A DNA stretch of 25,118 nt from a virus, in IMG/VR virus record IMGVR_UViG_3300010883_000420, positions 1-25,118 of that record; one strand, given 5' to 3'. The notes beneath the pieces are model-generated. The model did not search any database. It was not told the DNA's origin and saw only the letters and a list, made by a program, of their open reading frames with translations. This document shows, in pieces, positions 2,284-12,939 of the stretch. Within the stretch, counting starts at the first letter, position 1, and each line of letters opens with the position of its first letter. The position numbers were made by a program, and so were the translations under genes.

Positions 2284-2299
2284 GTTTATATTAAAGTAA

Positions 2300-2311
2300 T
2301 TAAACGTTTAA
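2300..2311. promoter_or_regulatory. 12-bp perfect palindrome upstream of the bS21 gene
   Basis: TTAAACGTTTAA is a perfect inverted repeat ending 13 nt before the ATG at 2325, in a gap with no other feature. It could be an operator, part of a promoter or a chance AT-rich palindrome. The remaining leader (2312-2324) is A-rich and has no Shine-Dalgarno sequence. Confidence 0.35.
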
Positions 2312-2324
2312 CTAAAACAACAAT

Positions 2325-2684
2325 ATGCAAAAAAACAACGATTTCAAAAAAGACCGACCATATAATAATGACGGCAAGTTCAAAAAGTCTAACTTCAAAA
2401 GATACAGGAGAGAAGAATTTTTTGTACCCGGTCATGGACTGGCCGTTAAAGTACCAGACGCAAACACTGGAACATTAGAAAAAGCCTTAAGATATTTAAA
2501 AAGGCAATTGAAAGATGATGATACTATGGCAAGAGTAAGGTCAAAAAAGTATTATGAAAAGCCATCAATGAAAAGAAGGAGAGAGCTAGACGAAGCCATA
2601 CGAAACAACAATTACCAAGAAAAGGTAACAAAGAGACACGTCAAGTACGTCTGGACAGCAATTATTGATGGTAACGCACAATAA
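2325..2684 (+). CDS. rpsU: Phage-encoded 30S ribosomal protein bS21 homolog
   Basis: A 119-residue, strongly basic protein. Residues about 39-86 match the bS21 core: LAVKVPD, then TLEKALRYLKRQLK, then ARVRSKKYYEKPSMKRRR; the YYEKPS-x-KRRR block is the hallmark of the family. Cellular bS21 is about 65-71 residues; this one has a 38-residue basic N-terminal extension and about 33 residues after the core. bS21 sits on the 30S platform near the 16S rRNA 3' end (anti-Shine-Dalgarno) and aids initiation; phage copies are known from pelagiphages and giant phages and presumably join host ribosomes late in infection. The gene stands alone between two terminators. It has no Shine-Dalgarno sequence (leader ACTAAAACAACAAT), unlike the strong AAGGAG sites of nearby capsid genes. 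Base composition matches its neighbours, and flanking head genes rule out host contamination. Confidence 0.88.
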   Translation: MQKNNDFKKDRPYNNDGKFKKSNFKRYRREEFFVPGHGLAVKVPDANTGTLEKALRYLKRQLKDDDTMARVRSKKYYEKPSMKRRRELDEAIRNNNYQEKVTKRHVKYVWTAIIDGNAQ

Positions 2685-2749: not shown

Positions 2750-2759
2750 ATATTTATAT
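2750..2759 (+). promoter_or_regulatory. Candidate late-promoter box upstream of the scaffold gene
   Basis: ATATTTATAT lies directly after the bS21 terminator, 116 nt before the scaffold start. It is one of eight copies of an ATATTTATATA-type box found in intergenic gaps of this window. If it is a promoter, the scaffold mRNA has a leader of about 100 nt. Confidence 0.45.
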
Positions 2760-2874: not shown

Positions 2875-3915
2875 ATGGCAAAATCAAATTTGCTTAAAGA
2901 AGCAATTGCTGACGCTAAAGCGGTTAGAGAAACGGCTATTGCAAACGCTAAATTAGCTCTCGAAGAGGCTTTCACTCCAAAACTTCAAAGTATGCTTTCA
3001 AGAAAAATCGAAGAAGAAACTGAAGAAGATGAGGACACGGTTGATGAAATAACTGGTTCATCTACAATTGGTAATGGCGACAATAAAGTCGACATAGCTG
3101 ATGGTGATGACGAAGAAAAACCTGAAACTACGAAACAATCTGCTGCTTACGGTTCTGAAGATTCAAATAATACTGTTGTTGATAAACTAACAGAAAATGA
3201 AGAAGACGAAGAAGAAGTAACTGAGGGTGAGTATGGCGAAGACGAAGAAGAAACTACTGAAATGCACGAAACCGAAGATGATGAAATGGACTTAGATCTA
3301 GAAGCAATCATTAGAGAACTAGAAGGCGAAGACGAAGAAGAAACTACTGAAATAGCTTACGAAGAAGAAGAAGATTTACCTGTTGATGAAATGGGTATGT
3401 CTAATGAAACTGAAGAAGAAACTGTGGATGAAGCTGAAGACGAAGAAGAAGTTGACCTTGACGAAATCATTAAATCTTTACACGAAGAAGACGATGACGA
3501 AGAAGAAGTTAATGAGGCTGAAGACGAAGAAGAAACTACAAAGGTTGATGAATTATCTGAAAGATTAAAAGAAGCTTATACGACGATTAAAACTATGAAA
3601 TCTACTATAAACGAAGTTAATCTTTTAAATGCAAAACTTTTATTTTCTAACAAGTTATTTAAATCACATAACTTGACAGAAGGTCAAAAAATGAAAATCA
3701 TCGAAACTTTTGACAGAGCAGTTTCAACAAGAGAAGTTAAGTTAGTTTATTCTACATTAGCTGAATCTTTAAGTTCAAACGCAAGTAAAAAATCTACTAT
3801 TAAGGAGAGTTTTGCTTCAAAAGCTACAAGATCTACTAAACCAGCACCTAAAGCGGTGATAGTTGAAGCAGATCAATTTACAAATCGAATGAAAAAATTA
3901 GCAGGACTATTATAG
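2875..3915 (+). CDS. 22: Prohead core scaffolding protein, gp22-like
   Basis: A 346-residue very acidic protein with a strong Shine-Dalgarno sequence (AAGGAG, start at 2875). Residues 1-45 form a helix (AKSNLLKEAIADAKAVRETA... FTPKLQSML) that I recognise as the N-terminal signature of scaffold proteins in marine T4-like phages. Residues about 48-225 are low-complexity Glu/Asp with tandem EDEEE(T/V) units; residues 226-305 are a helical coiled-coil segment; the C terminus ends FTNRMKKLAGLL. An IVE motif at 329-331 fits a gp21 cleavage site, as expected since T4 gp22 is degraded to peptides during maturation. The gene lies directly upstream of the capsid gene, the T4 arrangement. Assembly role is inferred from family and position; the acidic middle itself is not diagnostic. 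Confidence 0.82.
   Translation: MAKSNLLKEAIADAKAVRETAIANAKLALEEAFTPKLQSMLSRKIEEETEEDEDTVDEITGSSTIGNGDNKVDIADGDDEEKPETTKQSAAYGSEDSNNTVVDKLTENEEDEEEVTEGEYGEDEEETTEMHETEDDEMDLDLEAIIRELEGEDEEETTEIAYEEEEDLPVDEMGMSNETEEETVDEAEDEEEVDLDEIIKSLHEEDDDEEEVNEAEDEEETTKVDELSERLKEAYTTIKTMKSTINEVNLLNAKLLFSNKLFKSHNLTEGQKMKIIETFDRAVSTREVKLVYSTLAESLSSNASKKSTIKESFASKATRSTKPAPKAVIVEADQFTNRMKKLAGLL
3235..3353 (+). repeat. Direct repeats inside the acidic scaffold region
   Basis: An identical 29-bp stretch, beginning GGCGAAGACGAAGAAGAAAC, occurs at 3235-3263 and 3325-3353, 90 bp (30 codons) apart in the same frame. Shorter related GAAGACGAAGAAGAAG units follow near 3437 and 3520. Such repeats probably arose by slippage or duplication and lengthened the acidic region. 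Confidence 0.75.
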
Positions 3916-3945
3916 TACCTGTAACAAATTAAAAGGAGAAAAAAA

Positions 3946-5601
3946 ATGGCAAACATTTCAAACTTATTGAATGATGCTGGTAACGCATACGATAGCCGAT
4001 TACAAGAAACAAGAGGCTTAGTATCGAAGTGGGAGAAAACTGGACTTCTAGAAGGAATTGGACAAGAATACGACAAAAGTGGTATGGCTGTTCTTTTAGA
4101 AAATCAGGCTCGTCAATTAATTGATGAAGCTTCAAACACATCAAGCGGAACCGCAAGTAAAGAACAATGGTCAGGAGTTGCACTTCCACTAGTACGTAGA
4201 GTATTTGGTGAAATTGCTGCAAAAGACTTTGTAAGTGTACAACCGATGAACTTACCATCAGGTCTAGTATTTTTCCTAGACTTTAAATATGGAACTGACG
4301 CAGATTCAAACTTTGGTGGCGCTTATGCTGGCGATATCTTTGGAAATACTTCAGCTTCTAATCAAGATCCAACAGGTGGTTTATATGGTAATACTCCTGC
4401 AGGTGGAGGTAGATCTGGATTTACTACTAAAGTAAGAACAGCTAATATAGCATTAGCAGCAGCTGCAACTAACAAATCATCTTCTGCAACATGGAAAGAT
4501 GTAGGATTTAGTGCTGAGCTATCTGCTTCTGTTGCCGCAGGTCAAGTTATTGTAACTTCTGCTTCTATTGCTGACTTAACTGATGGCACTTTTGGTATCG
4601 ATGAAGATGCAGTAAGAAGTGCATATGTAACTTCTTCAGTTGTAACTCCAGCCGATAACTTAAACGCATATAACTATGTTAACGCAACTACAGCAGTTGC
4701 ATATGCATTTGTTTCTGCAAGTACATTAGCTGCAGCTGGTTCAAACACTGGTTTCTGCTGGCATTTCACAGGTAAGCCTACTGCTGACCAAAGAAATGAC
4801 TTTGAAATGGTTGGTGCAAACGTTGATACTTCATTAGCAACTCAAGATATTGGAATTCCACAAATTGATGTTGACTTAAGAAGTGAAGCAATTGTTGCTA
4901 AGACTAGAAAACTGAAAGCTGCATGGTCTCCTGAGTTCGCTCAAGACTTGAATGCTTATCACTCTATCGATGCTGAAGCTGAATTAACTTCTATGTTATC
5001 TGAATACATTTCTATGGAAATCGATTTAGAAATCTTAGACATGTTAATTGCAAACGCTAATACAACTGACTACTGGTCAGCTGCTCTTGGTGAAGTATAT
5101 GATGGTCAAAGTGCATTCTTAAGCCCAACGGCTGCAGAAGCTTATACACAGTTCACTTGGTTCCAAACTTTAGGTACTAAAATACAAAAAGTTTCTAACA
5201 AGATTCACCAAAAAACGCTTAGAGGCGGTGCAAACTTTATTGTTACCTCTCCAGAGGTTGCAACAATCCTAGAATCTATTCCTGGATATGCTGCAGATAC
5301 TGATGGTTCAGCGCAATCATTTGCAATGGGTGTACAAAAAACTGGAGCATTAAATTCTAGATTTACTGTTTACAAAAATCCTTATATGAAAGAAAACACT
5401 ATTTTATTAGGATTTAGAGGAACACAATTCTTGGAAACTGGAGCTGTTTACGCGCCGTATATTCCATTGATTATGACTCCACTGGTTTACGATCCTACAA
5501 ACTTTACTCCACGTAAAGGTGTAATGACTCGTTATGCTAAGAAAATGGTAAGACCTGAATTTTATGGTAAGATTCATGTTGCAGGATTAAATAGAATATA
5601 A
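3946..5601 (+). CDS. 23: Major capsid protein, gp23-like
   Basis: A 551-residue protein of the T4 gp23 family (HK97 fold; T4 gp23 is 521 residues), with strong AAGGAG eight bases before the ATG. Family landmarks are the N-terminal delta-domain-like helices, the FVSVQPMNLPSGLVFFLDFKYG block, a variable central insertion (about residues 140-285, rich in Ala, Ser and Thr), and the C-terminal segment YAPYIPLIMTPLVYDP followed by GVMTRYAKKMVRPEFYG. The sequence RQLIDE|ASN at residue 61 matches the (L/I)xE gp21 cleavage rule and lies close to the T4 cleavage at residue 65, so the mature protein probably starts at Ala62. It is the main shell subunit and the last gene before a strong terminator, as expected for the most abundant late product. 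Confidence 0.96.
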   Translation: MANISNLLNDAGNAYDSRLQETRGLVSKWEKTGLLEGIGQEYDKSGMAVLLENQARQLIDEASNTSSGTASKEQWSGVALPLVRRVFGEIAAKDFVSVQPMNLPSGLVFFLDFKYGTDADSNFGGAYAGDIFGNTSASNQDPTGGLYGNTPAGGGRSGFTTKVRTANIALAAAATNKSSSATWKDVGFSAELSASVAAGQVIVTSASIADLTDGTFGIDEDAVRSAYVTSSVVTPADNLNAYNYVNATTAVAYAFVSASTLAAAGSNTGFCWHFTGKPTADQRNDFEMVGANVDTSLATQDIGIPQIDVDLRSEAIVAKTRKLKAAWSPEFAQDLNAYHSIDAEAELTSMLSEYISMEIDLEILDMLIANANTTDYWSAALGEVYDGQSAFLSPTAAEAYTQFTWFQTLGTKIQKVSNKIHQKTLRGGANFIVTSPEVATILESIPGYAADTDGSAQSFAMGVQKTGALNSRFTVYKNPYMKENTILLGFRGTQFLETGAVYAPYIPLIMTPLVYDPTNFTPRKGVMTRYAKKMVRPEFYGKIHVAGLNRI

Positions 5602-5667: not shown

Positions 5668-5677
5668 GATATTTATA
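5668..5677 (+). promoter_or_regulatory. Candidate late-promoter box upstream of phoH
   Basis: GATATTTATA starts 8 nt after the capsid terminator and 31 nt before the PhoH start. The next bases, CTAAATAG, depart from the TATA continuation seen at other copies. Confidence 0.5.
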
Positions 5678-9451: not shown

Positions 9452-9508
9452 TAGAGAAACAAAGGATTACTATCTCACATAAAGAATATAATAAGAGGAG
9501 AAAAAATA

Positions 9509-12394
9509 ATGGCCGAAAGAATTGTTAGCCCAGGTGTTTTTACACAAGAAAACGACCTTTCATTTTTACCAGCAGGTATTGGCGAAATAGGCGCTGTAAT
9601 TATTGGAAGGACTGAAATAGGTCCAGCATTCCAACCTACAGTGATTCGCTCAATGGGTGATTTTGAATTACAGTTTGGAAGTAGTACAGCAGGTACTTAT
9701 GTACCATACACAGTAAAAGAATATATTAGAAGCGCAGGCGCTGTAACTATTGTTAGAGTTCTTGGATTAGATGGCTACAATATCACAAACCAGGTATTTT
9801 TATATGCATCAGGTTCAACTACATTTTCATCTCAATCCAATGCAGTTGACGGAAATTCTAAACATTTATTAGCGGTATTACATGCCTCTGCAGATGATGA
9901 TGACCAACAATGTACATCAGTAGCATATGGTACTGTTGGTGGAGGTGCATTTGCTACCGCATCTATTTCTATGAGTCAATTGGAAACAGGTTTAGGAGAT
10001 ACTGTATTTAGTGATGGAGCAGAATTTCAAATTAATGCTGGTGGAGTAAATTATAGATTTATTGCAGAAAGTAGTGTAAATCAAACACCAGATAATAATC
10101 CTATATTCTATTACCCTACAGGTTCTAATTCTGATGCATCTACTGCATTATTAAAGACAGAAATAAACACGGTACCAGTACTTAACGGATTAATATCTGC
10201 AACAGTTTCATCATCCAATTTACTATTAACTGCAGTAACAAAAGGAATTGCAGCAAACTCTTTTATAATTAAAACAGGTTCTGCAATAGCCGCTCCAGTA
10301 GTATATACTACTCAAGTTGGCTATAATAACGCTTTCCAAGATGGTGTTGCCAATACAGGAAGTGGAGACTTAAGTAATGCCTTAACTGGTAACGGAGTTG
10401 CAACCTTTACATGGAATAGTGCAGTAGCTGCAACTTGGTCATTTGATAAATCTAATGCAAATTACTTTGAAGATCAATTACCGGTCGCTGCAGGTGCATA
10501 TGTACCAGGTGTAGGTACTGGAACAGAAACATATATTAAATCAGCATACGTTTATTCAATATTTAATTCTCAATCTTATGGTGGAAACATTGATAATAAC
10601 GGTGGTGGATATGGTTTCACAATCGCAAGTCACTCGCTTCAAGATATAGACTTTAATGCAGCTTCAACTGCTGCAGGAACAGGAACAAATAGTGCTACAT
10701 CTGGTAAATCTTATTCAGCTGCAAGTACGCCTTGGGTTGTTTCTCAAACTATTGGTGGTTCAACAAACGAACCATTATTTAAAGTACATACATTATCACA
10801 TGGTAATAATACAAACACAATGGCCAAAGTAAGTATAGTAGCTATTAAAGCTGCAGGTAGTGTTAGTGGACAAGAATATGGAAGCTTTACAATAACTGTT
10901 AGGAAATTCGATGATACAGATACTAAAGTAGTTGCTTTAGAATCATATGCAAATTGTAATTTAGATCCTAATTCGCCTAACTATATTGCAAGACGTATCG
11001 GTGATAAATACAAATATTACCAAGCGGTCGGTGCAGATAGTAAACTTGTAGTTAAAGGTGATTATGAAAACCTTTCAAAATTCATTAGAGTTGAAGTAGA
11101 CGAAAGAGTAAGAAATGCAATATACTCTCCAGGATTAATACCATTTGGACATGAAGGTTATTTATCTCCATTCCAAGCATCAACATATGGCGCATACCCT
11201 GCTGCCGCATTAGTAACTTCTAGAAGTTTAACAACAGATACTAAAACTTATTTTGGTTTTAACTTTAACGAAGATGTACTTAATAATGGAATGAAATACT
11301 ATCTTGCTCCTTTGAGTGATACTGCTAATATAGGTTGGAATAAAACATTTACATTAGAACAATGTGTACATAATAGTGCAACAGTAAATACTGGTTCTGC
11401 ATTAAATGCTAAAAGATTTACACTAGCCCTACAAGGAGGATTTGATGGAACAAATCCAGCAACACCTGTTAATCTTGGATCAGATCTTTCATCTGGAAAT
11501 AGCTTTGGATTTAGTTTTGCAAGTACAACAACAAGTGGATATACTGCATATAAAAAGGCATTAGATACAATATCTAATCCTGATGAAATAGATATTAATC
11601 TTATTGTTATGCCCGGTATACTTTCACAAAACGCTTCAAACATCGTAACTAAAGCGATTGATGTATGTGAAGATAGAGGTGACTGTTTCTTTGTATTTGA
11701 TGGAGTTAATTCGTTAAACGGAGATGCAGTATCAGCCGCAATATCTCAAGCTGACAACTATGATACAAACTATGCAGCTCAATATTATCCATGGGTAAAA
11801 ATATTAGATGCAACTGTTAATAGATTTATATGGGTTCCGCCATCGGTAGTAGTACCTGGTGTAATTGCTTACAACGATAGAGTTGCATTCCCTTGGTTTG
11901 CTCCTGCAGGATTAAATAGAGGAAGCCTAGGAAGTGTAAGTGATGTTTATACAAGACTAACACATGGCGAAAGAGATGACTTATACGAAGGTAAAGTTAA
12001 TCCTATAGCCGTATTCCCTGCTGTTGGCGTATGTATTTGGGGCCAAAAAACCCTACAAACTAAGCCATCAGCATTAGATAGAATTAACGTTAGAAGATTA
12101 TTAATAAAACTTAAGAAGTTTATTGCTTCTTCTACAAAATACCTTGTATTTGAACAAAATACAACAGCAACAAGAAATAGATTCTTAAATATTGTTAACC
12201 CTTATTTAGAAACCGTACAACAACAACAAGGTTTATATGCATTTAAAGTTGTAATGGACGAAACAAATAATACACCAGATGTAGTAGATAGAAATCAAAT
12301 GAAAGGTGAAATATTCCTACAGCCTGCAAAAGCTGCAGAATTCATTATTATTGACTTCAACATTATGAGAACTGGTGCATCATTTGAAGAATAG
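9509..12394 (+). CDS. 18: Tail sheath protein, gp18-like
   Basis: A 961-residue contractile sheath subunit, much longer than T4 gp18 (659). The N terminus (VSPGVFTQENDLSFLP, VIIGRTEIGPAFQP, EYIRSAGAVTIVRVLG) and C terminus (PALDRINVRRLL-type region, TATRNRFLNIVNPYLE, GLYAFKVVMDETNNTPD, AAEFIIIDFNIMRTG) are typical sheath domains that form the inner extended-arm mesh. The extra length lies in a Gly/Ser/Thr/Asn-rich middle, about residues 110-480, presumably outward-facing protrusion domains. A strong GAGGAG precedes the ATG. With the tube gene immediately downstream, the two make the contractile tail shaft. A conserved-looking FPWFAPAGLNRG motif marks the start of the C-terminal domain. Confidence 0.95.
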   Translation: MAERIVSPGVFTQENDLSFLPAGIGEIGAVIIGRTEIGPAFQPTVIRSMGDFELQFGSSTAGTYVPYTVKEYIRSAGAVTIVRVLGLDGYNITNQVFLYASGSTTFSSQSNAVDGNSKHLLAVLHASADDDDQQCTSVAYGTVGGGAFATASISMSQLETGLGDTVFSDGAEFQINAGGVNYRFIAESSVNQTPDNNPIFYYPTGSNSDASTALLKTEINTVPVLNGLISATVSSSNLLLTAVTKGIAANSFIIKTGSAIAAPVVYTTQVGYNNAFQDGVANTGSGDLSNALTGNGVATFTWNSAVAATWSFDKSNANYFEDQLPVAAGAYVPGVGTGTETYIKSAYVYSIFNSQSYGGNIDNNGGGYGFTIASHSLQDIDFNAASTAAGTGTNSATSGKSYSAASTPWVVSQTIGGSTNEPLFKVHTLSHGNNTNTMAKVSIVAIKAAGSVSGQEYGSFTITVRKFDDTDTKVVALESYANCNLDPNSPNYIARRIGDKYKYYQAVGADSKLVVKGDYENLSKFIRVEVDERVRNAIYSPGLIPFGHEGYLSPFQASTYGAYPAAALVTSRSLTTDTKTYFGFNFNEDVLNNGMKYYLAPLSDTANIGWNKTFTLEQCVHNSATVNTGSALNAKRFTLALQGGFDGTNPATPVNLGSDLSSGNSFGFSFASTTTSGYTAYKKALDTISNPDEIDINLIVMPGILSQNASNIVTKAIDVCEDRGDCFFVFDGVNSLNGDAVSAAISQADNYDTNYAAQYYPWVKILDATVNRFIWVPPSVVVPGVIAYNDRVAFPWFAPAGLNRGSLGSVSDVYTRLTHGERDDLYEGKVNPIAVFPAVGVCIWGQKTLQTKPSALDRINVRRLLIKLKKFIASSTKYLVFEQNTTATRNRFLNIVNPYLETVQQQQGLYAFKVVMDETNNTPDVVDRNQMKGEIFLQPAKAAEFIIIDFNIMRTGASFEE

Positions 12395-12431: not shown

Positions 12432-12447
12432 TAGAGGAGAAAAATAA

Positions 12448-12939
12448 ATGGCAAATTTAGTAGACCCAAGCGAAATAATGTTCACGGCCTTTGAGCCTAA
12501 ACAACAAAATAGATTTATATTCTATATTGATGGAATACCTGCATACCTTATAAAGACAGCAGCTAGACCAAAGGTAGTGACTGAAGAAGTTGAATTACAA
12601 CATATCAATGTTTCAAGATATGTTAAAGGTAAAACAACTTGGGATCCAATTGATATTGTACTTTACGATCCAATTGTACCGTCGGGTGCACAAGCCGTAA
12701 TGGAATGGGTACGTTTACACCATGAATCAGTAACAGGTAGAGATGGTTATGCAGATTTCTATAAGAAAGATATAACTATAAATGTACTTGGACCTGTAGG
12801 TGATAAAGTAGAAGAATGGACGGGTAAAGGCGCAATGATTACAGGAGCAGATTTTGGAGCAATTGATTGGACCCAAACTGCAGCAGTTAACGAAATAACT
12901 GTATCTATTAGATGCGATTACTGGATATTACAATACTAA
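12448..12939 (+). CDS. 19: Tail tube protein, gp19-like
   Basis: A 163-residue protein, the same length as T4 gp19. Characteristic segments are FEPKQQNRFIFYIDGIPAY, the KVELQHINVSRYVKGK-like loop, WDPIDIVLYDPIVPSGAQAV, EWVRLHHESVTGRDGYADFY, and the terminal ITVSIRCDYWILQY strand. It stacks as hexameric rings through which DNA passes and serves as the template for sheath assembly. Strong ribosome site (GAGGAG). It lies directly after the sheath gene and is followed by an intrinsic terminator, so it is probably also expressed from its own promoter-like box. Confidence 0.95.
   Translation: MANLVDPSEIMFTAFEPKQQNRFIFYIDGIPAYLIKTAARPKVVTEEVELQHINVSRYVKGKTTWDPIDIVLYDPIVPSGAQAVMEWVRLHHESVTGRDGYADFYKKDITINVLGPVGDKVEEWTGKGAMITGADFGAIDWTQTAAVNEITVSIRCDYWILQY

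Follow-up and report, generated by a model that had tools for sequence, protein, structure and literature searches.

An open reading frame (ORF) at positions 2325 to 2684 (plus strand, ATG start, 119 aa) of the IMG/VR virus record IMGVR_UViG_3300010883_000420, analyzed over its first 25,118 nt (the window), is a genuine, enlarged ribosomal protein bS21 (rpsU homolog) encoded by a marine phage. Among the ribosomal proteins found in phages, bS21 is the most common. In this virus group it occurs almost only in phages that use Shine-Dalgarno (SD) sequences, which suggests that it may retune the host ribosome for translation of virion genes. We tentatively propose that, on the 30S platform, the phage bS21 replaces the host protein and moves the ribosome towards SD-dependent initiation, favoring SD-led virion mRNAs. 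We regard this as a strong possibility, just short of probable.

An earlier reading made from the letters alone (the sequence-only reading) had named the product bS21, and the profile searches confirm it. Ribosomal_S21 (PF01165) matched residues 49 to 95 with an E value of 2e-11 (43.8 bits, cut-off 27), the NCBIfam equivalog TIGR00030 scored 41.7 bits (cut-off 28.95), and PHROG 21469 ("ribosomal protein S21") was also matched. The enlarged size and the 38-residue basic N-terminal extension described in that reading hold as well: residues 1 to 38 carry a net charge of +6, and the extension is kept in IMG/VR relatives with 50 to 70% identity, somewhat shorter in some. The core spans residues 39 to 95 approximately. 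The C-terminal extension of about 25 residues was absent from the earlier description; its WTAI tail (W110-T-A-I113, aa 110-113) is invariant among the relatives compared. In the AlphaFold2 model two helices (48-73 and 80-107) are joined by KPS at residues 79 to 81. The mean predicted local distance difference test score (pLDDT) is 79 and the predicted template modeling score (pTM) only 0.42, with good confidence over most of both helices and lower confidence at both protein ends. Arg93 aligns with Tyr54 of Flavobacterium johnsoniae bS21 and is invariant in the window family; the aromatic residue 54 of Bacteroidia-type bS21 is thus absent. A search of bacterial genomes for close relatives of the window bS21 found none. 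In a Woesebacteria metagenome-assembled genome (MAG) contig (L273, genome G066), a 248-aa open frame carries a bS21-like domain at its C-terminal end and may be a fusion.

SD use was scored with the same gene caller and the same duplex score in all genomes. Among 76 loci of the major capsid protein (MCP) clade, 49 of the 53 with bS21 use SD sequences and 22 of the 23 without bS21 do not (Fisher test, 4e-14), at a cut-off of -2.8 kcal/mol chosen after inspecting the data and with loci incomplete upstream of the MCP gene, where bS21 would be, omitted. The threshold-free Mann-Whitney rank test gave 3e-11. For the single locus with SD use and no bS21 (LR756511), bS21 is encoded elsewhere. On the MCP tree there are three independent bS21 changes, all in step with SD use; with phylogeny counted the association is not significant (p = 0.25) because the independent changes are only three. 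The scores of the window and its relatives are like those of T4, and Flavobacterium phage immuto (no bS21) shows no SD use. In the window, AAGGAG or GAGGAG precedes many virion genes at the canonical distance, for example AAGGAG before the scaffold-like gene (2862-2867) and the MCP gene (3933-3938) and AGAGGAG before the large sheath-like gene (9494-9500) and the tube-like gene (12433-12439), all on the plus strand. The bS21 gene has no SD. The duplex energy of its leader (+1.8 kcal/mol) is the weakest of its locus, and the strong rpsU SD of Bacteroidia-type regulation is absent. The bS21 SD is weaker than the locus mean, and usually the weakest, in 13 of 13 window-clade records and in nine of ten records of the clade with a Tyr54-type bS21; it is weaker than the locus mean in 2 of 14 records related to "Microcystis" phage Mel-JY01 (Mel-like).

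The bS21 gene also lies in its own apparent transcription unit. A terminator-like hairpin, TGACATATA...TATATGTCA (2254-2275) followed by T8 (to 2283, plus strand), closes the upstream gene set and is nearly invariant in relatives. The conserved leader (2284-2324, plus strand) contains the promoter-like GTTTATATTAAAG, with TATATT at 2287 to 2292 (TATATTA box), and the palindrome TTAAACGTTTAA. The bS21 gene has a near-invariant leader of 75 nt. The stretch from the first hairpin to the ATG, GTTTATATTAAAGTAATTAAACGTTTAACTAAAA, is nearly invariant in 12 contigs while the protein varies, and a scan of viral contigs found it once per contig. Downstream is an intrinsic terminator, AAGGGAACA...TGTTCCCTT (2704-2726) with a T-tract (to 2736, plus strand). 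Eight copies of the late-promoter-like box ATATTTATA are present in the window, where 1.5 would be expected by chance, and seven precede genes; one stands before the scaffold-like gene (2750-2758, plus strand) and further boxes are at 5669, 6397, 9441, 12421, 13015, and 14151. The window scan found none before bS21. TATATTA-like boxes also stand before bS21 in other clades and before the primase gene of G001, a 67-kb relative of the window family. Because of the flanking terminators, the TATATTA box of its own and the missing late-promoter box, bS21 in this genome looks separately, perhaps earlier, expressed. The sequence-only reading had expected bS21 to be made with the late proteins. The promoter and terminator layout in this genome and in its clade, together with the SD-free start, speaks against late co-expression, which we provisionally reject.

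The palindrome (2300-2311) is perfect, stands just upstream of the bS21 start and is conserved in most relatives; it is a possible operator. A genome-wide operator role was rejected, since the window and G001 each contain a single exact copy. The leader was also considered as a structured regulatory RNA and rejected, its folding z-score being only -1.66 and derived mostly from the terminator-like hairpin. In G001, the terminase and some other genes (L047) have starts 3 to 4 nt past the late-promoter box without room for a leader; these are possibly leaderless late mRNAs or misplaced starts.

In Bacteroidia, bS21 together with bS18 and bS6 holds the 3' tail of 16S rRNA, with Tyr54 in a central role; rpsU has a strong SD and most genes have none (McNutt et al., 2023; PMC9976891), the latter because bS21 hides the anti-SD. 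In F. johnsoniae, Y54A or C-terminally truncated bS21 raises SD-led translation (PMC9976891). A Flavobacteriaceae MAG rpsU follows the pattern with a strong SD, GAGAGGAGG. The phage arrangement is the reverse of that in F. johnsoniae: bS21 is SD-free with Arg93 and the virion genes are SD-led. The proposal starts from what is observed: the product belongs to the bS21 family and has Arg93 in place of Tyr54, its gene forms an SD-free, isolated unit, the virion genes are SD-led, and bS21 and SD use are distributed together among the relatives. First, bS21 mRNA would be made from its own non-late promoter and its A-rich, SD-free start translated by unmodified host ribosomes. 30S subunits would then take up the phage bS21. 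Since this protein lacks a Tyr54-type residue and has different tails, the 16S 3' tail would not be locked in the bS21-bS18-bS6 pocket and the anti-SD would be free. Strong-SD virion mRNAs would then initiate efficiently and SD-less host mRNAs would lose out. The Bacteroidota host, the incorporation into ribosomes, the anti-SD release and the timing are what we infer. The sequence-only reading had named this bS21 a candidate for reprogramming host initiation; the comparative evidence links bS21 to the mode of initiation, and such reprogramming is plausible.

Several relatives appear to have two gene classes. In G061 and G033, which have Tyr54-type bS21, SDs are concentrated in virion genes (p = 0.005 and 0.009), and those of G039 are confined to the surroundings of bS21 and MCP. 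For G001, a set of nine non-virion genes was hand-picked after seeing the data (primase, endonuclease, HD-type hydrolase and six without known function). These average -0.76 kcal/mol compared with -5.48 kcal/mol for 43 others (p = 0.0015); most of the nine have no SD and the others are SD-led, with GGAG spacing of 10 to 13 nt. It is quite possible, though we say so with reserve, that viral bS21 makes the SD-blind ribosome of a Bacteroidota host read SDs at a late stage of infection, and that the phage's genes fall into two groups by mode of translation, the early ones (bS21 among them) being SD-free and those for the virion SD-led.

A number of points weigh against these proposals, beginning with the cut-off and the gene set picked after inspection and the loss of significance with phylogeny noted above. 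SD-led virion genes are also found in relatives that keep an aromatic residue at position 54; the rule that loss of Tyr54 equals gain of SD was rejected on this ground, and Tyr54 loss cannot be the whole mechanism, so that other changes must matter. Mel-like phages have SDs genome-wide and make bS21 in a late operon; the late-operon position expected by the sequence-only reading does hold in that clade. The promoter-like box of bS21 differs from the TAnnTTTG type of Bacteroidota. Foldseek with the bS21 model gave no significant PDB match. The window core (YYEKPS) is closer to general bacterial bS21 than to F. johnsoniae bS21, and G001 carries a permuted transfer-messenger RNA (tmRNA; L050:6259-6418, minus strand; RF04321, 71 bits; tag GEQVELAMAA by ARAGORN), a type known from Alpha- and Betaproteobacteria and Cyanobacteria (PMC9004378).

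The tmRNA, the core sequence, the genome-wide SDs of the Mel-like clade and the small number of times bS21 changed independently on the MCP tree all favor a serious rival explanation, which we consider unlikely on balance. The bS21-encoding phages may infect SD-using hosts and their bS21-free relatives SD-blind Bacteroidia, with bS21 only topping up or improving ordinary SD initiation; with a host that reads SDs in any case, the correlation between bS21 and SD use would be a host-range effect. The weak or missing SDs in non-virion genes of G001, G061 and G033, next to SD-led virion genes, argue against it. So do hints of a Bacteroidota host. The DUF2061 protein of G001 is closest to Bacteroidota (56-58% versus 45% identity), and the G033 homolog of a barrel protein has weak matches in 4 of 395 Bacteroidota genomes versus 0 of 398 Pseudomonadota genomes. 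A further hint is promoters: Bacteroidota-type TTG/TAnnTTTG promoters (consensus from PMC6847099) are found in 18 intergenic regions of Mel-JY01 (PP395634; L052, L223-L225) versus 0.8 expected, and also in its kin. The recorded Microcystis host of Mel-JY01 may be wrong, the true host perhaps being another bacterium in the culture. The MCP position near immuto and Rhodothermus phage RM378 was also counted for a Bacteroidota host. In the window family the Bacteroidota promoter was rejected as weak, coming mainly from one orthologous site before the scaffold gene that overlaps a terminator; its absence says little because the signal was not seen in immuto either, a known Flavobacterium phage. Other routes to the host were dropped: the barrel protein of G001 by itself (a single weak match per phylum), MAG bins (MCP identity to the nearest MAG contigs is only 51 to 59%, and binning of phage contigs is unreliable) and tRNAs (too few found).

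Non-selective replacement is improbable. The phage bS21 would stand in for lost, limiting or proteolyzed host bS21, or resist translation shut-off, and keep late ribosomes active with the choice of mRNA unchanged. Pelagiphage HTVC008M bS21 entered E. coli ribosomes (Mizuno et al., 2019, as cited in PMC9723584), and a counter-defense role has been proposed (PMC9723584), both in line with such a role, which nevertheless predicts neither that bS21 and SD use go together nor that the bS21 gene lacks an SD. Very improbable is a non-ribosomal role as a basic RNA- or DNA-binding protein for head assembly or virion packaging, the latter suggested in PMC9723584: it would account for the long conserved tails, the invariant WTAI and the place between protease and scaffold in the head cluster, and is opposed by the conserved core matching the equivalog model and by the separate non-late transcription unit.

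Earlier work already described bS21 genes in phage head clusters and their late transcription in lake phages, and proposed that the protein gives preference to phage mRNAs (Chen et al., 2022; PMC9723584). As in the Bacteroidetes phages of that study, the window bS21 is found near protease and MCP genes, in a conserved head-gene neighborhood; those phages are myoviruses with bS21 near terminase, protease and MCP genes and commonly with PhoH. Their bS21 is encoded on the opposite strand, always has an aromatic residue 54 and is transcribed at the late stage, whereas the window bS21 is on the same strand in its own unit, with Arg at position 54 and long N- and C-terminal tails. The host bS21 of F. 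johnsoniae (PMC9976891) agrees with our proposal in that bS21 decides anti-SD availability. Mel-JY01 resembles the window in the position of bS21 (between the protease or an unknown ORF and the scaffold region), in MCP (52%), in the lack of Tyr54 and in SD use; it differs in that its bS21 has 75 aa without extensions, an average SD and a place in a late operon, with SDs throughout the genome. HTVC008M is likewise a marine phage with a bS21 (as cited in PMC9723584). An SD analysis of phage genes was not found in PMC9723584, and in the open-access literature we found nothing on SD use in bS21 phages or on a connection between the two. That bS21 accompanies SD use, and that its own gene has no SD in phages whose virion genes do, turns a vague preference for phage mRNAs into a specific prediction, that phage bS21 frees the anti-SD. 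If true, this would give a clear example from nature of a virus-made specialized ribosome.

The end of a gp21-like head protease gene (70-387) lies upstream of bS21, and downstream are the scaffold-like gene (2875-3915), the MCP gene (3946-5601), PhoH, neck, and the large sheath-like (9509-12394) and tube-like (12448-12939) genes; the scaffold, sheath and tube names are based on position and size, not on a family match. The nearest cultured phages by MCP are immuto (52.8%) and Mel-JY01 (51.9%), followed by RM378; immuto and RM378 lack bS21 and Mel-JY01 has the short form. The placement of bS21 between head protease and scaffold in the sequence-only reading was right, with one correction: three ORFs without known function separate the protease from bS21. 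The 345-aa ORF directly before bS21 (1193-2230) has no PHROG match, and its homologs occupy the same place in two relatives (L002 and L006).
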